DNA of 38,096 bases. It comes from a virus. Location: positions 1 through 38,096 of the IMG/VR virus record IMGVR_UViG_3300024356_000018; one strand, written 5' to 3'. Shown here piece by piece: positions 1 to 36,439 of this stretch. The position numbers were made by a program, and so were the translations under genes. The first letter of the stretch is position 1. Every line of letters begins with the position of its first letter. Below the pieces are notes generated by a model, which made no database searches, was not told where the DNA came from, and saw only the letters and a program-made list of their open reading frames with translations.

Positions 1-733
1 GCTCGACACTGAAATTACTAGTAACATCAAGATGCAAATCAGGACTAGGATGCTCTAACACATAGTCGAATACACGGTATGTGTTTTTATCCATCAAGGG
101 CTCGCCACCAGTCATTCGAAAGTGTTTGAGCGTAGGGTATAAACTAGGCCACCATTCCCAAAAGGCATCCACATATGGATTATATTCACGAGCAGGGATA
201 GGTCGTTTACGACCTGTAAAGTGACTGGGGTCATTGTGAGGATTACTAGTGGGATACGCTCCGTGCCTAGTAATTTCGTCAGACCAACTGCTGCTAAACT
301 GAGGGCTGCAATAACTACACTTAAGGTTACAAGCGTGATTAAAATTGACCTCCACATAACTTGGAATTTCATCTTCATCTCCAGTGCTGTTTACAATACG
401 ATCGAAATGTTCTGCTGCCCAGGGTTCGCCACTACGGTAGTGCCTATCACTTAGGTTACCTAAATCTTCTTGTGTCCAACAATAGCTACACTCACCAGGG
501 CGTTCATTACGCAACATAATTCTGCGCTGTTCTTTTTTGTAGGGCGTATTGTGTAGAGCACTGGGATTATCTTTTAATAATGTTTCGTCTATTTTATGAA
601 GTGGAGGATGATAGCAACTATTTGTTAAGCCCGTGGGAAGATGCAGGCTGACCTGCTGCCATTTTGCAAGACATAGTCCCTCACCAAGCTGGGACTTCAT
701 TTTTTCTGCTGCTGTTAAAAACTCGCTGGACAT
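1..733 (-). CDS. Twitch-domain radical SAM protein, 5' part only (runs off window start)
   Basis: The frame opens with ATG at 733 and stays open to base 1, giving about 244 residues of a longer protein. The radical SAM motif CNLKCSYC (C135, C139, C142) would bind the 4Fe-4S cluster that cleaves S-adenosylmethionine, and MTGGEPLMD further on is the SAM-contacting GGEP strand. Before the core there are extra cysteines, C40 in TNSCYHPP and C82/C85 in ECSYCW. This layout matches radical SAM proteins with an N-terminal twitch domain, where they would hold an auxiliary cluster. Such enzymes occur in marine phages but their substrates are unknown to me. The ATG overlaps the stop of the upstream transferase gene by one base (TAATG), so the two are probably translated together. 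The C-terminal end is not in the window. The family call is secure; the reaction is not known. Confidence 0.88.
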   Translation of the reverse strand, partial: MSSEFLTAAEKMKSQLGEGLCLAKWQQVSLHLPTGLTNSCYHPPLHKIDETLLKDNPSALHNTPYKKEQRRIMLRNERPGECSYCWTQEDLGNLSDRHYRSGEPWAAEHFDRIVNSTGDEDEIPSYVEVNFNHACNLKCSYCSPQFSSSWSDEITRHGAYPTSNPHNDPSHFTGRKRPIPAREYNPYVDAFWEWWPSLYPTLKHFRMTGGEPLMDKNTYRVFDYVLEHPSPDLHLDVTSNFSVE

Positions 734-1668
734 TACCAACCTTCTATTCTTCTAATTACGTCCATCTCGGTCATCATAATTTCGGTGTTACGTTGACCTG
801 AACTATAATGATGCTTAAAAAATTTACTTTGATCAGGACTTAACATTGTTATAGGAAGACCCAATCTGTTCGTCAGAGCATCCTGAATATTTGTGCAGCC
901 TAGTACAGGATCTTCTTTACTAAACATATCCCACAATTTTTCTAACATATCAAAGTCTTGTACATAATGATGATCCCAACCTTCAAGCATAATCATAAAT
1001 GTACCTAGTCTTGCACCATACATAGCCCAATAACCGTTTTCTACATCTGCTCCCACACTCTGCCAGATGCAGAGATGATCGTAATTACGATTGTTTACTT
1101 TACGTTCAAATTCTTCAAGGCTAGGTTTTGCGCCGCGATCCAGACACATTTTGACTCCTTCACGGAAACCAGCACGCCAGGCCTGCTTGGGACTACCATT
1201 GGGGTATGTTGTACTGTAGCAATTATGCATTGCGAAATATTTTGGATCAAAACAAAATTCAACAGCAGTTTCTTCTCTCCCATCACTAGCTTCGTGTGTT
1301 CGCATATTATTGACAAAGTCTTTGCTCCAGACACTAAGACCCCCATTGCCGTAACGAAGCCCATTTATGATATTTCTAGCTTTCCATCTAAAGGCTGCAC
1401 CAGCATATTCTGGTTTAATATTCAATTGTAGATTAAAAAATTCCGGGTCTGGTAGATTATCTCCATCTATTAATACAAACCAGTCTGTATCACTTTGCGC
1501 GGCCGCTGCCTTGTGTGCAGCATCGCTACCTTTAATCCCATCAACCCTTTTAGCCCAGGGTATCATATTCTGTATTTTAACCCAAAATTCTTCCTTTTTA
1601 GGTTCATCGTAGGTTAAAAAGACTACATCTAGATCAGCAATATCAAGAGTTTCTGTTTGTATAGTCAT
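733..1668 (-). CDS. Glycosyltransferase-like protein with DGD motif
   Basis: A 311-residue protein starting near DLDVVFLTYDEP, a first beta strand typical of GT-A folds. LIDGDN at about residues 67-71 is a candidate DxD metal and nucleotide-sugar binding motif. The segment WAKRVDGIKGSDAAHKAAA, followed by the DGDN strand, is a pattern I associate with family 2-like transferases in marine T4-type phages. The longer frame begins with TTG at 1677, but ATG at 1668 is preferred; it overlaps the upstream gene by 26 bases. Its stop overlaps the radical SAM start by one base. It belongs to a tightly coupled cassette with two other transferase-like genes. The acceptor is unknown: virion protein, DNA or host surface sugar are all possible. 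No signal peptide or membrane segment is seen, so it should act in the cytoplasm. Confidence 0.68.
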   Translation of the reverse strand: MTIQTETLDIADLDVVFLTYDEPKKEEFWVKIQNMIPWAKRVDGIKGSDAAHKAAAAQSDTDWFVLIDGDNLPDPEFFNLQLNIKPEYAGAAFRWKARNIINGLRYGNGGLSVWSKDFVNNMRTHEASDGREETAVEFCFDPKYFAMHNCYSTTYPNGSPKQAWRAGFREGVKMCLDRGAKPSLEEFERKVNNRNYDHLCIWQSVGADVENGYWAMYGARLGTFMIMLEGWDHHYVQDFDMLEKLWDMFSKEDPVLGCTNIQDALTNRLGLPITMLSPDQSKFFKHHYSSGQRNTEIMMTEMDVIRRIEGW

Positions 1669-2024
1669 AATATTCAATATGTTTAAAGTTTTTTAATTCT
1701 GATTTATCTATTACCAGTGCTGCGTGTCCAGGAATTGTAGGAACACCAGTCTTGGATCTTTTAAGTTTTCTTTTTAATTCAACATTATGCACGATTAGTT
1801 CTGCTACACCATCTCGTATATAATATTGGTGGTAATTGTAAAATATTTCCTTTTCTACTACTATATAAGGTAATTCTGTTGTAGGATGATTTATCATACT
1901 ACACATTTTAATGTCGCCCTGCTTATCGTAGTACCATCTATACTCAGGAACTTCTGGTTTATATGCTAAGTGTTCCTGATAGGCTTCCATCAAAGCTTTA
2001 AATAATTCCTGTTCTGCGTTCATA
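1643..2024 (-). CDS. Small phage protein of unknown function
   Basis: I do not recognise this roughly 126-residue protein. ATG at 2024 is preferred over the TTG eight bases earlier. It is soluble, with an acidic, aromatic N-terminal half (several Tyr and Trp around residues 20-35) and a basic stretch VELKRKLKRSK in the second half. There is no cysteine cluster and no transmembrane segment. It overlaps both neighbours, starting inside the end of the upstream transferase gene and ending inside the start of the downstream one, so it is probably translated with them and expressed as part of the transferase/radical SAM cassette. Its C-terminus contains HIEYYDY, like IEYYER at the end of the upstream protein; this reflects a repeated junction sequence. 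A partner or substrate-handling role is only a guess. Confidence 0.6.
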
Positions 2025-2855
2025 GTATTCAATTAGTTCTGGAGTAGCATACTGTTTATCATAATAGTGTACAGGCCAATATTGGTTAACACTATTAATT
2101 CGTATCATATCTTGATCTCGTTCCGCTAGAACTGCATCGTACCAGGGTATACTGGTATTATAACCATTTATCTCTGGTTTCATATGCACAAATTTAATAA
2201 AATCCAGCGTGGGTAATGTTGTAAGTTCTAGTCCCACTACCTGCGCAGTGACGGCGTAAAGTACATCAGTGCTGGGGGTTTCTTCTCGACAATTTTTTAA
2301 CACCCTTGTTTTTAGTTCATCCCAGTGTTCTCTTATCTCATTAGCTGTACTAAAAAATCTAGCAGATGTCTGGCTATATCTAAAATACATAAGCCCTGTA
2401 TAAATGTCAGGTAGTGCATTACTGTCGAAAAATCTACGGTAGGCTCGACTAGTTGCTGGCTTGCCCTGACTTGTTAAGCAGCCCAGTGGCATAAACACAT
2501 CACGTAATCGAAAACTAGGCAACCAGTGATCTATACTGGAAGTAAAAAGTAAATCACTTTCTAATTTGATAGTTTCTTTAAAAGGAGTAAGACTGAAGGC
2601 CTGGCATTCATTCGCCAATTTCCAGTTCGAGTCTTGATTATTATAATTATTTTGTATTTCTATTACGTAATCAAAAACTTTTTTATGTTTTGCTGTTATT
2701 TGTTTGTTTGTCTCGGCGTCTACTAGGACTGCGTATCTATTATTTTTTTGGGTAGCTTTTATATTAAGTGCTTGCAGATAGGCTAAACTAAGATAGTCAG
2801 TATCTTGCGTGTTTTCAGCTATGGTTAAAAATCCAAGTTGTTCTTTATGCTGCAT
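1998..2855 (-). CDS. GT-A-like nucleotide-sugar transferase, paralogue of 2845-3654
   Basis: A 285-residue protein. LTPFKETIKLESDLLF (residues 89-104) aligns by eye with LTPYDTTILIDSDYLAL in the next gene upstream. In both, an acidic S-D pair (E99-S-D101 here) takes the place of the DxD motif of GT-A transferases. DYLSLAYLQAL near residue 20 also matches DYLEIAARCARL there, so the two genes are probably an old tandem duplication. Expected role: transfer of a sugar from a nucleotide-sugar to an unknown acceptor in the cytoplasm. Replacement of the first Asp by Glu is unusual and may alter metal binding. It begins with ATG inside the last codons of the upstream gene (11-base overlap). No signal peptide or membrane segment. 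The fold assignment is inferred from motifs, not from a profile search. Confidence 0.6.
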   Translation of the reverse strand: MQHKEQLGFLTIAENTQDTDYLSLAYLQALNIKATQKNNRYAVLVDAETNKQITAKHKKVFDYVIEIQNNYNNQDSNWKLANECQAFSLTPFKETIKLESDLLFTSSIDHWLPSFRLRDVFMPLGCLTSQGKPATSRAYRRFFDSNALPDIYTGLMYFRYSQTSARFFSTANEIREHWDELKTRVLKNCREETPSTDVLYAVTAQVVGLELTTLPTLDFIKFVHMKPEINGYNTSIPWYDAVLAERDQDMIRINSVNQYWPVHYYDKQYATPELIEYYERRTGII

Positions 2856-3654
2856 TTATGTACTCTTCTAGAAAGTTTTTATAACTGTCTGATAGTAGAT
2901 ATAATTTATCCATAACGTGTATGTCCTGAACTGGAAGGATATGAGCTTTCTTATCAGTTCGTATAATCAATGATTTGTTTTGTTTTTCTAAACTTTTAAT
3001 TTCTGTATCAAGAGTAAGCATTGGCCAGGGTATACGCCTATTGTTTTCTAAACGGTATCCATTTATTATTAGATCTGCTATAGCAAATGCGTAATCGTTA
3101 CGATAGCTTTGATTAAATATGTTGAACATTGCACAATAGTAACTATATCGATTTTCTATCCTAGCAACCATATCAAATAAATCCTGACTGGCTTTGGTTT
3201 TATTGAACGCCACCACCGTTGCCCATAGGTAATTAATACTACCACGTGCCATTGGTTGTGTTAAAATTTCCTGCGTATTATAACTGTCCTTGACTATTAA
3301 ATAGTCAAAGTTAGTATCAAGAAGTTTAACTAGATTATTAGTAAGCGCAAGGTAATCGGAATCTATTAAAATTGTGGTATCATAGGGTGTAAGCTCGTAT
3401 GCTTTATATCTACTCTTGTTACGCCAGACCCAGGTTGCACTATTATAGTATTTTGTGTTTGTATTATCTAAAGCCGGAATACTAATAATATTTTCAAAAT
3501 TATTATTTTTATAATCAGTTGCATCCGTTATAAGGGTAATTGGTAGACCCAGTGAATGTTTAACTAGTCTTGCGCATCTAGCTGCTATTTCCAAATAGTC
3601 TACTTTGTCAGTATTACTAGCGAATACCACTACCCCCTTAGACTTTTCGGACAC
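2845..3654 (-). CDS. GT-A-like nucleotide-sugar transferase
   Basis: A 269-residue protein starting with GTG at 3654, 17 bases inside the end of the upstream small gene. The N-terminus KGVVVFASNTDKVDYLEIA is a Rossmann-like first strand followed by a helix. LPITLITDATDY is the second strand. ILIDSDYLAL holds the DSD motif (D98-S-D100), which would bind metal and nucleotide-sugar. Similar proteins are frequent next to tail fibre genes in marine T4-like phages, usually without a known function. Position directly downstream of tail fibre genes suggests a role in modifying virion or host glycans, but the cassette has its own early-type promoter, which argues against purely late virion decoration. 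No transmembrane segment. The transferase call rests on motif reading alone. Confidence 0.62.
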   Translation of the reverse strand: MSEKSKGVVVFASNTDKVDYLEIAARCARLVKHSLGLPITLITDATDYKNNNFENIISIPALDNTNTKYYNSATWVWRNKSRYKAYELTPYDTTILIDSDYLALTNNLVKLLDTNFDYLIVKDSYNTQEILTQPMARGSINYLWATVVAFNKTKASQDLFDMVARIENRYSYYCAMFNIFNQSYRNDYAFAIADLIINGYRLENNRRIPWPMLTLDTEIKSLEKQNKSLIIRTDKKAHILPVQDIHVMDKLYLLSDSYKNFLEEYINAA

Positions 3655-3952
3655 GAGCTATTTCCTGATATTGTTGATGCCAGGCGTTCATTTGTACTTG
3701 ATAATGTTGCTTGGCTAGTTCATAAAATTCTTGCCTAGATACTTTTATAGGATTTTCGTAGACGTCTGCTAAAAATAACTCATCATCAGGCCAAGTAGCT
3801 ACGAAAGACAGAAGCTCGGGACTAGCTAAAAACATTCCACCATTATGGGTAAAGTGCAAATTAGTTTTGACTGATTCGCGAAGAAGTTTTTTGTTTATTT
3901 GTATGTCAGTGGCTTGACGCACTGACTCTGCAATTTGACTTATAGAATTCAT
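3638..3952 (-). CDS. Conserved small phage protein, first gene of the transferase cassette
   Basis: A 104-residue soluble protein beginning with ATG at 3952. It contains NLHFTHNGGMF, LASPELLSFVATW and NPIKVSRQEFYELAKQHYQ, a pattern I have seen in small conserved proteins of marine T4-like phages without an assigned function. The second half looks helical and ends in a basic tail. It is the first gene after the sigma-70-type promoter at 3980-4008, leaving a leader of only about 20 bases, and no clear Shine-Dalgarno sequence is visible. It overlaps the following transferase start by 17 bases. Constant association with transferase genes would suggest a partner role; this is inference. Confidence 0.68.
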   Translation of the reverse strand: MNSISQIAESVRQATDIQINKKLLRESVKTNLHFTHNGGMFLASPELLSFVATWPDDELFLADVYENPIKVSRQEFYELAKQHYQVQMNAWHQQYQEIARVRKV

Positions 3953-3966
3953 AGTTTTAATGTAAT

Positions 3967-3997
3967 AAAGGCCTAGAGTATTATACTATAGGCCTTT
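3967..3997 (-). terminator. Dyad centred on the cassette -10: terminator of the tail gene and/or operator
   Basis: A 9-bp perfect arm pair (AAAGGCCTA and TAGGCCTTT), plus an inner AGTA/TACT pair, forms a 31-base hairpin centred at 3982. It lies 29 bases after the stop of the tail gene ending at 4026 and is followed on the minus strand by TTTATTACATT, a moderate U-tract, so it can act as an intrinsic terminator. It is also centred on the TATAAT of the cassette promoter, so it could equally be a repressor site. The sequence alone cannot separate the two roles. Confidence 0.6.
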
Positions 3998-4008
3998 TGG
4001 TTCGTCAA
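3980..4008 (-). promoter_or_regulatory. Sigma-70-type promoter for the transferase/radical SAM cassette
   Basis: On the minus strand, TTGACG (4008 to 4003) and TATAAT (3985 to 3980) are separated by exactly 17 bases. This differs from the consensus at one base of the -35 and none of the -10. Transcription would start near 3973, about 20 bases before the ATG at 3952. The adjoining structural genes instead carry nATAAATA late-type boxes, so this cassette appears to be read by unmodified host RNA polymerase. Confidence 0.68.
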
Positions 4009-4025: not shown

Positions 4026-4976
4026 TTAAGTAACTGTAATACTACCCCAGGTGTTTGCAAGGAAAGTTGTTTCTGGTGGAATAATATCAATTCTGGTAGT
4101 AATAGTTCCAGAGATATCATCACTAGTGGTATCAGCTCCGGCTTCAGCACTCTGGAAACCTTGGTTAATGGTATAGGTAAATGTAATTACGTTACCAACG
4201 TCCTGATAGGTAGCATCTTGTTGACCATTAGTTCTAACTCTCAGTGTCACATTACTGTCTGTGTATTGTGCTGTGGTTGCAGTAGCTTGGAATAAAATTA
4301 CATTAGCTGTAGATAAGTTCCAATAACCCTGTGTAGTATTGTCCGTTACGCTAGCACCGCCTGTTCCTGTTCTAGCTGCGCAATTAGTACCTCTAAGAGT
4401 TTTGGCAGTCATAAATGGTTGGAAGGCAATAAAAGTTGCGCCTCGGCTCGTGGCATCTGTTCTTGTAATAGCTGGAACGTTGAATACAATTTGCCCGCCC
4501 GAATTAAAGAAGAATCGTGCAGCATCTGGACTTGCGAAACTCACTGTTCTTGTTACGTCTACAGTGTACAATGCAGATGTTGTACTGGAATAGGACACGT
4601 TGGCATTAGTACCAGTGATAGTAGTTCCCACTGCTGAGTAATTATTTCTATTTGTAAATCCTGTGGTCAAGTTGCCAGAGACTTGACTATAAAAAGTTAT
4701 AGTATCCCCCGCAACAGGCAGAGTAGTAACAATATTAGCCAAGGCGTCTTGATGCCGACGCATACGGTTAAGATAGTTAAAGAAATCTGACCACTGTGTA
4801 GCAGTTACAGTACTTGCTACTGACACGTTAGCTGGCACTACTTGACCATAACCAGAGTCTCCTCTACCTCTCCCCCACACCGTGGCAAGTTCACCTGATA
4901 CTTTTGCTCCAGCATTACCACCTATAAAATTGTTATAGTCAGTAGCTTGAATTAAACCAGTTTGCGCATAAGTCAT
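4026..4976 (-). CDS. Tail-associated structural protein
   Basis: A 316-residue protein, last gene of the leftward structural block. The N-terminus MTYAQTGLIQATDYNNFIGG, the WGRGRGDSGYGQ segment and TATQWSDFFNYLNRMRRHQDA form a head region that I associate with structural proteins beside tail fibre genes in marine T4-like phages. The remainder is rich in Thr, Ser, Asn and Ala with alternating beta-strand patterns, as expected of a fibre or adhesin shaft, and ends in TFLANTWGSITVT. No signal peptide or membrane segment is seen. A late-type box lies 27 bases upstream, at 5004-5011. It ends just before the hairpin at 3967-3997. Whether it is a fibre, a tip protein or a baseplate decoration cannot be decided here. 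Confidence 0.65.
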   Translation of the reverse strand: MTYAQTGLIQATDYNNFIGGNAGAKVSGELATVWGRGRGDSGYGQVVPANVSVASTVTATQWSDFFNYLNRMRRHQDALANIVTTLPVAGDTITFYSQVSGNLTTGFTNRNNYSAVGTTITGTNANVSYSSTTSALYTVDVTRTVSFASPDAARFFFNSGGQIVFNVPAITRTDATSRGATFIAFQPFMTAKTLRGTNCAARTGTGGASVTDNTTQGYWNLSTANVILFQATATTAQYTDSNVTLRVRTNGQQDATYQDVGNVITFTYTINQGFQSAEAGADTTSDDISGTITTRIDIIPPETTFLANTWGSITVT

Positions 4977-4998: not shown

Positions 4999-6498
4999 TT
5001 AAATATTTATTCGTACAATAGCTAGCACTGTATTTTCTGAAGGGTCTTTTTTGTCCTCTAGGGATCTACCAATGACATTAAATGGCGTCACTTCATCAGC
5101 AGTTGCAGCTCGAGCTAGTCCATTTCCGGCAGATACTAGACGATCACCTTTAGTAACTGTACCTAGTGTTCTTACTGGTACTCTACCAGAAAGTACAACC
5201 GCTGGGTGAGATTTCTCATTGCCTGCTTCTGCATTCATTAGGTACGCTGGCGCAGTGCTTATTACACCTAGTACGTTTTGGCTCAACTCTTCTGTTTCTA
5301 GAGTTACTTCATAGAAGCCACCCACACGAACTAGAGTACCAGGAGGGTAGACATTATCTGCCGCAAATCGTTCTGCCAAGTCAGCGTACTCTGCTGAACT
5401 AGCTCTACCAATTAAATTCACGGCCGTGACTGAATTTGCAAATACATTACTAAAATATCTTGTGCTACTTCCTATTGTTCCACTAATATTGGATGCAGGA
5501 ACAATATTACTTGTGTTCATTGTTATATTACCTACTACTACACTAGAAGTGGCTGCGTAAGTAGCGGCTTGTACTTGTGTATTAGAGTAGATTCTTAATG
5601 CTTCCACACTAGAGCCGGAATTTACAACGTTGACTGCTATATCACCACTGTTAACTGTGTTTTGTAGTCTTACTAGCGTACTTGAGCCGCCTACGATTCT
5701 AAACTGACTGGCATTACCAAAGCTTACACCTGCTTCATTAGTACTACTAAACTGGATTACACCACTTAATACCTGCGCATTTCCAGTAGTAGTTACATAG
5801 GCGTTGGCGTTTAAGTTTCCTAGTTTATCTGCATTAGTGGCTGTGCCTACTAGTTTAACATTGGCGCTGGCAAACGTGAAACCAGTATATAAATCAGCAT
5901 TAGCGCCAAATGATGTATTGATATCAGTAGCAAGTGTAGTTGCGCTAGAACCCATTTCAAAATCGCTGCCACTTAGTACAGCAACTACATTTCCGTCTAT
6001 ATAAAATGCTGTGACAGTCTTAGTTGAGCCAGTGCTGCTGTCCACAGTTCCAGTAACTGTACCACTAGTACCAGCGTTACTGCTGAATGTGCTTTCGCCT
6101 ACTTTAACCCAGGCGTTGCCGTTATAGATCTTAAGAGCTTTGTTAGCTGGATCTGTAGTTTTATCAAACCAAAGATCGCCTTCTTTTACTGTTGCTGATG
6201 CAGCTACAACATTGCTTGTGGTAAGTTTAGCAATGCTATTAAATCTGGTCCCATCGTAGACTTTAAGGCTTAGGTTAGCTTTATCATACCAAAGCTGCCC
6301 TGTGAGTATGTTTGTGGGGTTTGGTTGTGTCTCACTAGCAAAATTCTCTGTTATTCGTAGGAAATTTTGATTTAATGCTGGCCCGTAATCAGCTGAGTTT
6401 TTACCAATAAACTGAATTACATAGTCAGTTGTTGGGGTAACTAGACCTGCACTAATTGATAGTGGGGTACCGTCTTGTTTATTAATTGTATATGCCAT
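4999..6498 (-). CDS. Tail fibre-like protein with C-terminal YADLAE domain
   Basis: A 499-residue protein. Near the N-terminus are two short repeats, GQLWYDKANLSLKVYDGT (about residue 68) and GDLWFDKTTDP with KALKIYNGNAWVKVG (about residue 106), typical of T4-like marine tail fibres. The middle is a low-complexity Ser/Thr/Asn/Val shaft. From about residue 366, SAEYADLAERFAADN begins a roughly 130-residue C-terminal domain shared with the fibre at 7315-8928 (YADLAE, PAYLMN, then RSLEDK against KSLEDN). It resembles tail-spike C-terminal domains of the Peptidase_G2 or intramolecular-chaperone type, which can cleave themselves; cleavage here is not shown. It should bind the host surface. A late-type box sits 22 bases upstream. 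Confidence 0.75.
   Translation of the reverse strand: MAYTINKQDGTPLSISAGLVTPTTDYVIQFIGKNSADYGPALNQNFLRITENFASETQPNPTNILTGQLWYDKANLSLKVYDGTRFNSIAKLTTSNVVAASATVKEGDLWFDKTTDPANKALKIYNGNAWVKVGESTFSSNAGTSGTVTGTVDSSTGSTKTVTAFYIDGNVVAVLSGSDFEMGSSATTLATDINTSFGANADLYTGFTFASANVKLVGTATNADKLGNLNANAYVTTTGNAQVLSGVIQFSSTNEAGVSFGNASQFRIVGGSSTLVRLQNTVNSGDIAVNVVNSGSSVEALRIYSNTQVQAATYAATSSVVVGNITMNTSNIVPASNISGTIGSSTRYFSNVFANSVTAVNLIGRASSAEYADLAERFAADNVYPPGTLVRVGGFYEVTLETEELSQNVLGVISTAPAYLMNAEAGNEKSHPAVVLSGRVPVRTLGTVTKGDRLVSAGNGLARAATADEVTPFNVIGRSLEDKKDPSENTVLAIVRINI
5004..5011 (-). promoter_or_regulatory. Late-type promoter box AATAAATA
   Basis: The minus strand reads AATAAATATT, 27 bases upstream of the ATG at 4976, followed by GGGATTAATATATG as the ribosome-loading region. 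It matches the T4 late promoter TATAAATA except at the first base. It overlaps the end of the preceding tail fibre gene. Confidence 0.5.
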
Positions 6499-33057: not shown

Positions 33058-34830
33058 ATGTTCAAGATTAAGTCGTTAACATTAAAAAACTTTATGAGTG
33101 TGGGTAACGCCACTCAGGGTGTTAATTTTGATCGCGATGATCTCACACTGGTACTGGGAGAGAACGTAGACCTTGGTGGTGATGATGCTGGCGCACGTAA
33201 TGGCACTGGCAAGACCACAATTATTAATGCTCTTTCCTATGCGCTCTATGGCGAAGCATTGACCAAAATTAAAAAAGATAATCTGATTAACCGCACCAAT
33301 GCCAAAAATATGTTGGTGACCATTGACTTTGAGTGTAACGGTCAGGAATATAGAATTGAGCGCGGTCGTAAACCCAATATAATGAAGTTTTTTATTGGTG
33401 GTGACGAGCAAGAGCAGAAGGAAGATGAGAGCCAGGGCGATAGTCGTGAAACACAGGCGGCTATCGAGCATCTTCTTAATATGAGTCCCGATATGTTTAG
33501 ACACATTGTGGCGCTAAACACCTACACAGAGCCTTTCCTGAGTCTCAGGGCTAATGATCAACGAAGTATAATTGAGCAACTACTGGGTATAACCCTACTC
33601 AGCGAAAAAGCTGAAGCTCTCAAAGAACAGCAGAAGTTAACCAAGGAAGCGATTCAGGAAGAAGACTTTAGGATCAAGGCCACACTGGATGCCAACAAAC
33701 GTATTCAGGAACAGATAGCCAGTACTGAACGTAGACAGAAACTTTGGCGTCAGAAACACGATGAAGAACTGGTTGCTATACAATCAGCCTATGACGAGCT
33801 GGCTAAACTGGACATCGAACAAGAATTACTAGCGCATCAGGCCCTTGTTAATCATAGAGAAAAAACACGAACTCTCCAGGAAAGTGAACGCTGGATCAAG
33901 AGCATAGATAGTGATAATGCAAAATTAAACAAGGCTGTAGAAGCTTTACAGCGAGATCTAGATGCTTTGGCCAAGCACGAATGTTATGCCTGTGGTCAAG
34001 CATTGCACGACGACAAACAAGATGAAATACGTAGTGCAAAAAACAAACAATTACAAGAAGCAACCTTACAGATTTTGACTAACGAAACACAACGTCAGGA
34101 ACATCAGCAAATAGTAGAATCTTTGAAAAATCTTGGACCAGCACCCACAACCTTCTACGCCACTGAGAGCGATGCTTTTGAACATCGCAGCAGTATGGCA
34201 GCTCTACTTACACAACTAGTATCTAAACAATCCGAACAAGATCCCTATCAGGATGCCATCATAGAAATGCGTGAGCAGGCACTACAGGAGGTAAGTTATG
34301 ATCTAATTAATGAACTTACTAGTCTAAGAGATCATCAGGAATTTTTACTTAAACTATTGAGCAACAAGGACAGTTTTATACGTAAGCGTATCATTGACCA
34401 AAACTTAAACTATCTAAATGCTCGTCTGGGTTACTATCTAGATAAAATTGGTCTACCACACACGGTTAAATTTAACAACGACCTCACTGTGAGCATTGAA
34501 GAACTTGGTCGTGAACTGGACTTTGACAACCTAAGCCGTGGTGAACGCAACAGATTGATTCTAAGTTTGAGCTGGGCGTTCCGTGATGTCTGGGAAAGCT
34601 TGTATCAGCCTGTGAACTTGTTGTTCATCGATGAGCTTATTGATAGTGGACTGGATAGTTCCGGAGTGGAAAATAGTCTAGCACTGCTCAAGAAGATGAG
34701 CCGTGAGGGTAACAAGAGTGTCTGGTTAGTCAGTCACAAAGACGAACTAATTGGACGAGTAAGTAATATAATGCGTGTGGTCAAGGAAAACGGCTATACT
34801 ATGTATAACACAGACCTGGAGACAGCGTGA
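33058..34830 (+). CDS. 46: Recombination nuclease ATPase subunit gp46-like (SbcC/Rad50 family)
   Basis: A 590-residue ATPase, near T4 gp46 (560). GARNGTGKTT (45-54) is the Walker A site. Long helical arms (about 170-460) flank a zinc hook CYAC (C309, C312). LSRGE (492-496) is the ABC signature, LLFIDELID with D525/E526 is Walker B, and SHKDEL near 560 is the H loop. With gp47 it processes DNA ends using ATP. The signature has Arg in place of the second Gly, as in many phage members. Its stop codon overlaps the GTG start of the SDR gene (GTGA). Confidence 0.93.
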   Translation: MFKIKSLTLKNFMSVGNATQGVNFDRDDLTLVLGENVDLGGDDAGARNGTGKTTIINALSYALYGEALTKIKKDNLINRTNAKNMLVTIDFECNGQEYRIERGRKPNIMKFFIGGDEQEQKEDESQGDSRETQAAIEHLLNMSPDMFRHIVALNTYTEPFLSLRANDQRSIIEQLLGITLLSEKAEALKEQQKLTKEAIQEEDFRIKATLDANKRIQEQIASTERRQKLWRQKHDEELVAIQSAYDELAKLDIEQELLAHQALVNHREKTRTLQESERWIKSIDSDNAKLNKAVEALQRDLDALAKHECYACGQALHDDKQDEIRSAKNKQLQEATLQILTNETQRQEHQQIVESLKNLGPAPTTFYATESDAFEHRSSMAALLTQLVSKQSEQDPYQDAIIEMREQALQEVSYDLINELTSLRDHQEFLLKLLSNKDSFIRKRIIDQNLNYLNARLGYYLDKIGLPHTVKFNNDLTVSIEELGRELDFDNLSRGERNRLILSLSWAFRDVWESLYQPVNLLFIDELIDSGLDSSGVENSLALLKKMSREGNKSVWLVSHKDELIGRVSNIMRVVKENGYTMYNTDLETA

Positions 34831-35345
34831 AGATTTTAATCACGGGCACATCAGGTCTGGCACAAGGACTGCTTAATTTACTGGAACTAGAGCACACAAT
34901 TACCTGTGTGAGTAGATCCACTGGCTACGATATACTGGAAGTTGATACCTGGGCAAGCAATTTTTTAGACTATGATATGGTAATCAATAACGCCTATGAT
35001 GGCCTAGGTCAACTCAAGGTACTGGAATATTTTTATTCTCACTGGCATCTAGATGCCAACAAACACATTATTAATATAGGAAGCAGAGCCAGTTACTTCC
35101 CCCGCAGTGAACAACATCTAGACTCTGAATACTGGCCCTATCGCTTGCACAAACAGGCACTGGAAAAAGCCTGGGAAAAAATGGTTAACAGCCAGTGTGA
35201 TATAAAATTAATCAATCCCGGTCCACTGGACACAGACTTGATTAGAAATTTAGAAATTACCAAGATGCCTGTCACGGAAGCTGCTGAGTGTATGTCTAAG
35301 TTTATATTTGACCCAAGGATTAAGAGAGTGGACCTATGGCTATAA
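34827..35345 (+). CDS. Short SDR-like NAD(P)-binding oxidoreductase
   Basis: A 172-residue protein. MKILITGTSGLAQGL is a nucleotide-binding strand and TGxSGxxxG loop (6-14), INNA (53-56) matches the SDR NNA motif, and S86 with Y105-x3-K109 (YRLHK) could be the catalytic Ser, Tyr and Lys. The protein is shorter than typical SDRs (about 250), so the substrate-binding part is reduced. It starts with GTG inside the gp46 stop and ends ten bases inside the radical SAM gene, so the three are translationally linked. It may act on the same substrate as that enzyme, or produce a modified sugar or cofactor. Substrate unknown. Confidence 0.7.
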   Translation: MKILITGTSGLAQGLLNLLELEHTITCVSRSTGYDILEVDTWASNFLDYDMVINNAYDGLGQLKVLEYFYSHWHLDANKHIINIGSRASYFPRSEQHLDSEYWPYRLHKQALEKAWEKMVNSQCDIKLINPGPLDTDLIRNLEITKMPVTEAAECMSKFIFDPRIKRVDLWL

Positions 35346-36439
35346 ACTGGCAATTCTATCATTGGCATCTGGAACCCAGCGCAGTCTGTGTGGCTCGATG
35401 CCCACGTTGCCCTCGCACAGAGCATCCAGATACTCCCTGGTTGAATAAAAATATGACTCTGGAGTTTGTTAAAAAGTTTTTTACAGTGGATATGTTGACC
35501 AATCAGGTACGTAGAGTTACTATGTGCGGTGATGTTGGTGATCCTATCTACTGTAAAGAATTTTTAGAAATTGTACAATATATTAAACAGACTAATCCCC
35601 TAATTCATTTGTTTATCATAACAAATGGCAGTAGCAGACGACCACAATGGTGGCGCGAGCTAGCAAAACTGCTAGATGCTAGAGATACAATTAATTTTAG
35701 TGTGGATGGCTACGATCAAGCAAGTAATAATTTATATAGAGTAAACACAGACTTTGACAGTATACTAGAGGGAATAAAAAGTATACGTGAAGTTAATAAA
35801 CAAGTACATTTAAACTGGGCCACCATTGTGTTCAGTTTTAATCAGGACAGACTAGATGATATAAAACAGCTAGCTCGAAGCCTGTCTATGGATGGTCTAC
35901 AACTTACTCTAAGCACTAAGTTTGGTAGTAAGTACGGTGAAGCCTACGGTGGTGAACAAGATCCGCTGGAACCACGTGCAGAGTTTATCAGCAGCAGTCA
36001 TCGTTATGAACGTCAGTTAATAAATCTAAGTGGCCGTATCATTGACAATGGTGAATATCTTGCCGTCAATCAGGAAAAATATAGAGCAATTAAAAAACAA
36101 TATGAGAATTATCCCATAGTGCCTATGTGTGAAATAGGTAATCGTGGGGTCTATGTCAATGCCGAGGGAGTTATATTTCCCTGTAGTTGGGTAAGTTTCC
36201 CCTATAATAGTTTGACTTATGCTGATAAGACTATACAATGGCAAGACAGTTTCTTTGCGAAATATCGCGATAGAATGAATTTAAATCATCGTTCCTTTCA
36301 GGAAATTATAGCAGATCCGCTCTGGAGCAAGTGTAGCCAGGGCTGGCAGGATGCCAGTAAGAGCTGGGTGGAATGCAGTCAGAAATGTAGCAGAGAACTG
36401 GTAGATCAGGACTATGCTGTGGGCTGGCTTACCAATTAA
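35336..36439 (+). CDS. Radical SAM protein with SPASM-like C-terminal cysteines
   Basis: A 367-residue protein. CVARCPRC (C18, C22, C25) is the CxxxCxxC radical SAM motif. TMCGDVGDPI is the GGEP-like strand, and NFSVDGYD fits the later barrel strand that contacts SAM. C-terminal cysteines C265, C283, C333, C347 and C351 are arranged as in SPASM auxiliary cluster domains, whose members often modify peptides or sugars. It overlaps the SDR gene by ten bases. It is distinct from the N-twitch enzyme at 1-733, so the window carries two radical SAM genes. The neighbouring SDR and absence of a recognisable peptide precursor leave the substrate open. Confidence 0.85.
   Translation: MAINWQFYHWHLEPSAVCVARCPRCPRTEHPDTPWLNKNMTLEFVKKFFTVDMLTNQVRRVTMCGDVGDPIYCKEFLEIVQYIKQTNPLIHLFIITNGSSRRPQWWRELAKLLDARDTINFSVDGYDQASNNLYRVNTDFDSILEGIKSIREVNKQVHLNWATIVFSFNQDRLDDIKQLARSLSMDGLQLTLSTKFGSKYGEAYGGEQDPLEPRAEFISSSHRYERQLINLSGRIIDNGEYLAVNQEKYRAIKKQYENYPIVPMCEIGNRGVYVNAEGVIFPCSWVSFPYNSLTYADKTIQWQDSFFAKYRDRMNLNHRSFQEIIADPLWSKCSQGWQDASKSWVECSQKCSRELVDQDYAVGWLTN

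Follow-up and report, generated by a model that had tools for sequence, protein, structure and literature searches.

The subject of this analysis is a gene cassette at one end of a stretch of viral DNA of 38,096 nt (positions 1 to 38,096 of IMG/VR record IMGVR_UViG_3300024356_000018), which we refer to as the window. On the minus strand of window positions 1-3952, six overlapping open reading frames (ORFs) follow one another in the order u104-GT269-GT285-u129-GT314-rSAM (Table 1). As the original prediction from the DNA sequence had described, two of the six encode small proteins of no assigned function, and the cassette lies beside tail fibre genes, with fib316 directly upstream. Pfam and PHROGs gave next to nothing on the cassette proteins other than the radical SAM enzyme (rSAM), a PDB profile search gave no identity for u104, and queries with GT269, GT285, GT314, u104 and fib316 returned zero matches among 50,697 cultured-phage records. 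Baseplate gene 6 and gp46 of the window have their best matches, at 34-51% identity, in jumbo T4-like myoviruses of the Atu_ph07, Phosso, SCTP-2 and PA5oct type and, judged by such sequence matches, the carriers of the cassette are jumbo T4-like myoviruses.

Table 1. Positions of the cassette genes, the adjoining fibre gene and the signals between them in the window.
Feature	Position	Strand	Description
rSAM1	2..739	-	N-twitch radical SAM enzyme; NF033640 match; 3' end beyond window
GT314	733..1677	-	GT-A-like transferase, DGD site; best-conserved transferase of the cassette
u129	1643..2032	-	small fast-evolving protein, no function assigned
GT285	1998..2855	-	GT269 paralogue, ESD site, invariant H263/K267
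GT269	2845..3654	-	GT8-like transferase, DSD site, invariant H246/K250
u104	3638..3952	-	104-aa protein, no function assigned; first cassette gene; used as second seed
Inverted repeat AAAGGCCTA..TAGGCCTTT	3967..3997	-	hairpin with the -10 box of the promoter inside it
Promoter TTGACG-N17-TATAAT	3980..4008	-	sigma70-type, 11/12 consensus positions; upstream of u104
fib316	4026..4976	-	short tail fibre gene directly upstream of the cassette; possible acceptor; late-type motif at 5011

A GT314 query against IMG/VR returned 105 relatives, of which 80 were kept. Loci seeded with GT314 and GT269 make up a set of 81 relative loci, from which one duplicate contig was dropped and in which some near-identical contigs remain, while a u104 query yielded 57 loci with enough downstream sequence. 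The two sets have contigs in common and thus represent different queries, not independent samples; removal of sequences more than 88% identical leaves 44 in the GT314 set. GT269, GT285 and GT314 were all present, in unchanged order, in 81/81 loci, accompanied by u104 in 79, by rSAM in 78 and by a recognisable u129 in 66. Nearly all loci of this set without a recognisable u129 have an ORF at the same place. With u104 as the seed, the three transferases were in place in 57/57 loci. The gene-neighbourhood analysis that had been proposed as a check therefore shows that the genes co-occur in relatives, and the kept order rules out chance clustering.

Relative to the nearest relative (L001), dN/dS was 0.04-0.10 for the four cassette genes with an estimable dS; for u104 and GT269 dN was 0.08 and 0.19 with dS saturated, and all six ORFs look to be under purifying selection. 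The identity of GT314 and rSAM1 among relatives is mostly above 60%, whereas that of fib316 drops to 33-42%. The fib316 protein, variable overall, is conserved at its N-terminus and in an NTWG-type motif at the C-terminal end, with WG falling within the last 14 residues in 55/63 relatives. A bacterial island was rejected as an origin of the cassette: nine GT314 matches from bacterial genome bins lie on what look to be contigs of phages, and in eight of these nine u104-GT269-GT285 lie directly upstream, preceded by tail-like genes. Two bin contigs, 335 kb and 153 kb long and assigned to Candidatus Neomarinimicrobiota (L096 and L101; PBPT01000016.1 and PBPT01000082.1), carry the cassette behind tail-like genes; these and other bin contigs are probably misbinned phage.

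The single host-type promoter that had been predicted for the cassette was confirmed (Table 1). Upstream of u104 in relatives, a sigma70-like site with at least 10/12 consensus positions was present in 31/57 loci and one with at least 11/12 in 24/57. The T4-type late motif NATAAATA has six minus-strand copies in the window; five of them precede late genes by 28-35 bp, and u104 is preceded by none. The same contrast was observed in relatives, where the region upstream of the neighbouring fibre gene fib499 has the late motif in 47/56 cases and a sigma70-like site in 5/56. Internal sigma70-like sites in relatives were rare (0 for GT269, 0 for GT285, 5 for GT314 and 1 for rSAM), and none reached 11/12. 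These sequence signals support the earlier suggestion that the cassette genes are not late genes and would fit their early expression. The proposed joint function of the genes is strongly supported by their kept order, by one shared promoter and by the near absence of internal ones. A hairpin (arms of at least 7) was found at the position of the inverted repeat in 43/58 sequences, against 7.1 expected from shuffles; its sequence varies between relatives and it encloses a -10-like box in 24/58. Transcription of the tail fibre probably terminates at this hairpin, which is merged with the cassette promoter, so that one transcript would end where the other begins. Five relatives (L058, L066, L075, L077 and L078) have a late-type GATAAATAGCTGC directly before the cassette in place of a sigma70 site, and cassette expression may thus be timed differently in different lineages.

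Three GT-A-like transferases had been predicted. This held for the pair GT269 and GT285, and structure prediction, carried out on GT269 and GT314 as had been proposed, gave GT269 a GT-A fold and GT314 a moderately supported GT-A-like one. The AlphaFold2 model of GT269 (pLDDT 95.3) can be aligned along its entire length with glycogenin (Z 16.5, rmsd 4.0, 213 aligned) and also matches LgtC (Z 14.4), and a Foldseek search with it gave an E-value of 1e-6. That GT269 and GT285 are tandem paralogues with DSD and ESD motifs was borne out by profile alignment (hhalign probability 98.8, E 5e-17) and by the invariance, across the families, of D98/D100 in GT269 and E99/D101 in GT285. Of the elements of the GT8 motif (DxD plus a C-terminal His metal ligand and Lys), looked for at the sequence level, both families have an invariant DxD or ExD together with an invariant HxxxK, the His of which is a candidate metal ligand, and the GT285 profile aligns its ESD with the glycogenin DAD, albeit at a weak E of 0.004. 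A GT-A fold of the GT8 kind is thus supported for GT269 by the model and for GT285 via homology and the profile match. Since neither the window GT269 nor any of 49 GT285 members gave a match in Pfam, GT8 models included, we term the two proteins GT8-like and do not file them as GT8.

For GT314, in whose family DGD is invariant, residues 10-159 of the AlphaFold2 model (pLDDT 87.2) match GT-A transferases (B4GALNT1: Z 9.7, rmsd 3.1, 139 aligned). Because the Foldseek E-values are weak (best 8e-4) and nucleotidyltransferases sharing the core score almost as high, a GT-A-like fold of this segment is moderately supported by the model, and GT314 is best described as a putative transferase. Ranked by Foldseek E-value, its PDB fold matches are headed by SunS, a peptide S-glycosyltransferase, with a TM-score of about 0.3. 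Against PF00535 (GT2) it scored 16.4 bits, under the gathering cut-off of 23.3; the best E among other GT314 members was 1e-4, to PF13641; and profile comparison detected no homology between GT314 and GT269.

The last gene of the cassette was confirmed as an N-twitch radical SAM enzyme, as predicted: it scores 211.5 bits against the NCBIfam model N_Twi_rSAM (NF033640, cut-off 170) although it is cut by the window end, and full-length relatives exceed this cut-off in 17/17 records. Its N-terminal motifs are CSYCW and CNLKCSYC. In relatives, GT314 is followed, in some cases with as much as 6 kb inserted in between, by an ordered array of about 4-5 rSAM paralogues, arranged as group 1, group 2, two of group 0 and sometimes group 3. 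CxxxCxxC is kept in 169/169 array members, and the small group 3 is without the N-terminal CxxC pattern that was looked for. Whole records contain 5-13 NF033640 matches each. In a few phages (G016/L046) two adjacent N-twitch genes appear to be fused in frame (L046:12245-14459, L047:12245-14776 and L073:11641-14214). Among the samples covered, the family was nearly confined to phage contigs, with one apparently cellular match in about 560 proteobacterial genomes: it was found in 1/289 alphaproteobacterial genomes, namely the seed, in its phage-like contigs, and in 2/274 genomes of a second proteobacterial class, namely the seed and one isolated bacterial gene (L199), the neighbourhood of which, inspected by eye, holds methyltransferase-like and housekeeping-like genes and was uninformative. 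Twitch/SPASM radical SAM enzymes acting on sugars occur in aminoglycoside pathways (BtrN), which makes a sugar-tailoring role for the N-twitch array reasonable. A second, different radical SAM-like gene was noted by eye on the plus strand of the window (35336-36439), after an SDR-like gene (34827-35345) and gp46/gp47.

In relatives, the cassette is the first part of a cluster of roughly 20-25 kb, the downstream part of which we surveyed in nine relatives, with families assigned on L084. Most of the nine carry c5, GDSL-like proteins, a carbamoyltransferase of the NodU-like kind (Carbam_trans_C, E 5e-51 in L084), c8 and a long protein that resembles GT314 in one part; inserts within the cassette are also built of GDSL and c8 genes. 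Pfam and NCBIfam gave no identity for c5, nor did Pfam, NCBIfam and PDB profiles for c8. Convergent to these genes, likewise in most of the nine, are a DegT/DnrJ aminotransferase (PF01041, E 2e-73) and a nucleoside diphosphate (NDP)-sugar dehydratase/epimerase (PF01370, E 1e-42), after which come thymidylate synthase and dihydrofolate reductase (DHFR). Taken together, the aminotransferase, the dehydratase, the carbamoyltransferase, the esterase-like enzymes and the several transferases suggest that a tailored glycan is made, and the glycan idea of the original prediction is strengthened by the first three of these and the GDSL genes, which were seen in relatives, outside the window. A strongly hydrophobic segment was found in 5/612 cassette ORFs of relatives and in 0/93 ORFs further downstream, and this scarcity of membrane-protein candidates makes it likely that the acceptors are cytosolic.

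That no described system has this composition, as had been stated, proved too strong a claim. Pelagimyophages have a hypervariable host-recognition cluster by their tail fibres, downstream of VrlC, with several GT8 transferases and radical SAM cassettes (PMC7029224). It resembles the present locus in its T4-like phage context, its tail-fibre region and its combination of GT8 with radical SAM; the accessible parts of that source, however, do not report an ordered transferase triad with an rSAM array. The cyanophages P-SSM2 and S-SSM7 carry lipopolysaccharide (LPS) gene clusters, and several of the cyanophages studied with them have carbamoyltransferases (PMC3037559). These are likewise large carbohydrate clusters in T4-like genomes, but they are located near hli03/phoH, not behind tail fibres, and the ordered triad and array are not reported there either. 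With the LPS and host-recognition clusters of T4-like phages the present cluster shares a position behind tail fibres, several transferases, radical SAM and sugar enzymes, but not homologous transferases, as no homologue of N_Twi_rSAM, GT285 or GT314 was found in P-SSM2, S-SSM7 or the cultured pelagimyophage HTVC008M. We found no paper that links radical SAM with jumbo phages or carbamoyltransferase with tail fibres. As far as the accessible parts of the literature compared show, the fixed triad with an ordered rSAM array is undescribed.

Chloroviruses and mimivirus use viral transferases and nucleotide-sugar enzymes to glycosylate their own structural proteins (PMC4691112). The GT314 model resembles transferases of PBCV-1 and mimivirus; these, however, are eukaryotic viruses, and a radical SAM array is not reported in the accessible parts of that source. 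Agrobacterium phage Atu_ph07 and Sinorhizobium phage Phosso are related jumbo phages with several radical SAM genes behind a tail fibre at the same genome position, although their enzymes are SPASM-type and come without the cassette transferases. Inside this SPASM radical SAM operon both phages encode a virion-like protein of ~300 aa (L185:18318-19238 in Phosso and L186:15089-15979 in Atu_ph07) with a Cys/His-rich C-terminus containing CHxS repeats (DYCHTSCHASCHSSRSRR and DFCHSSCHASCHNSRSRR, respectively), and the SPASM enzymes have weak matches to peptide maturases, including HxsB/HxsC. Judged by its sequence, this would be a tail protein that radical SAM enzymes mature, here in phages that have been cultured.

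Our preferred reading puts the cassette at the promoter-proximal end of a glycan pathway that the phage encodes in ~20-25 kb, and the product of this pathway would most likely be attached to a phage structural protein; we hold it tentatively, with slightly more doubt than belief. Host RNA polymerase would transcribe the cassette early from its own sigma70 promoter, while the NDP-sugar dehydratase and the DegT aminotransferase would make an activated amino/deoxy sugar. From this sugar the three cytosolic GT-A transferases would build a short glycan, on which the ordered N-twitch enzymes, the carbamoyltransferase and the GDSL enzymes would modify positions. The glycan would then decorate a phage structural protein, for which the adjacent fib316 is the first candidate. 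The data described above establish which genes are present and in what order, their co-conservation, their predicted folds and motifs and the type of promoter; one common pathway, with its order of steps, its timing and its acceptor, is what we infer from them. The far better conservation of GT314 and rSAM1 than of fib316 fits a constant phage-borne acceptor over variable host glycans, and the presence of SPASM enzymes with a virion-like protein at the corresponding site of Atu_ph07 and Phosso suggests that this locus may generally mature tail proteins. Several points weigh against the preferred reading. The glycan itself is a prediction from genes and predicted folds. An early promoter is unneeded for a late virion protein and suits modification of the host surface or of DNA at least equally, and in 5/57 relatives a late motif before u104 replaces the sigma70 site. 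LPS and glycogen are what GT8 enzymes are chiefly known for, we know of no substrate of the N-twitch family, and the Atu_ph07/Phosso operon is analogous, not homologous, as the profiles of the cassette transferases match there only at noise level.

If the host surface were the target, early soluble transferases would act from the cytoplasmic side to change the core or the O-chain of the LPS and so block competing phages or the sticking of progeny to debris. The early-type sigma70 promoter and the GT8-like folds, with LgtC among the matches, are consistent with such remodelling, as are the LPS clusters known in P-SSM2 and S-SSM7 (PMC3037559) and the pelagimyophage cluster with GT8 and radical SAM cassettes, for which the authors put forward an O-chain change (PMC7029224). 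However, the cluster has almost no flippase, polymerase or ligase-type membrane candidates, and the conservation of its enzymes is far above that expected for host-variable surface glycans. We consider this explanation, and host LPS or a surface glycan as the acceptor, possible but rather unlikely. An early-type promoter and conserved soluble enzymes would also fit hypermodification of DNA, in which the transferases and rSAM decorate a modified phage DNA base against restriction, and thymidylate synthase, DHFR and dCMP deaminase are close by in relatives. Yet exactly one PF00303 gene was found in eight of the nine relatives and zero in the ninth (records may be incomplete, and other routes were not searched), which means that no second copy of the T4-type dCMP hydroxymethylase kind was found in these nine. 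The one PF00303 gene that was compared with NCBIfam scores as a true thymidylate synthase, and the cassette adjoins tail genes, not replication genes. Hypermodification seems improbable to us; phage DNA as the acceptor is given the same low standing, as is an acceptor of any further kind.

A third possibility is that the rSAM array cross-links or modifies a virion peptide, for instance the fib316 C-terminus, and that the transferases glycosylate it, as in glycosylated ribosomally synthesized and post-translationally modified peptides. The rank of SunS among the GT314 fold matches, the SPASM enzymes and the Cys/His-rich tail-like protein that occupy this position in Atu_ph07 and Phosso, and the conserved NTWG-type motif of fib316 argue in its favour. 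On the other hand, the SunS match has a low TM-score, no short precursor peptide was seen, and N_Twi_rSAM does not count among the SPASM peptide maturase families, and we regard peptide maturation as very improbable. Under the preferred reading of a glycan pathway, a virion protein is the acceptor that we would name, if with appreciable doubt. A bolder proposal, which we think unlikely, is that a dedicated, ordered enzyme array lets the phage produce a rare, rSAM-tailored glycan of its own and put it on its own tail fibre; if true, such a glycan would free the chemistry of the receptor-binding tip from the limit of 20 amino acids.

The cluster takes up about 20-25 kb of these genomes, and the order of its core is fixed across some hundred environmental contigs. 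This large genome share and fixed order suggest that it should be important to infection. Learning what the array does would give the N-twitch family its first reaction, and would show whether phages use radical enzymes in a glycan chemistry of their own, on the virion or on the host.

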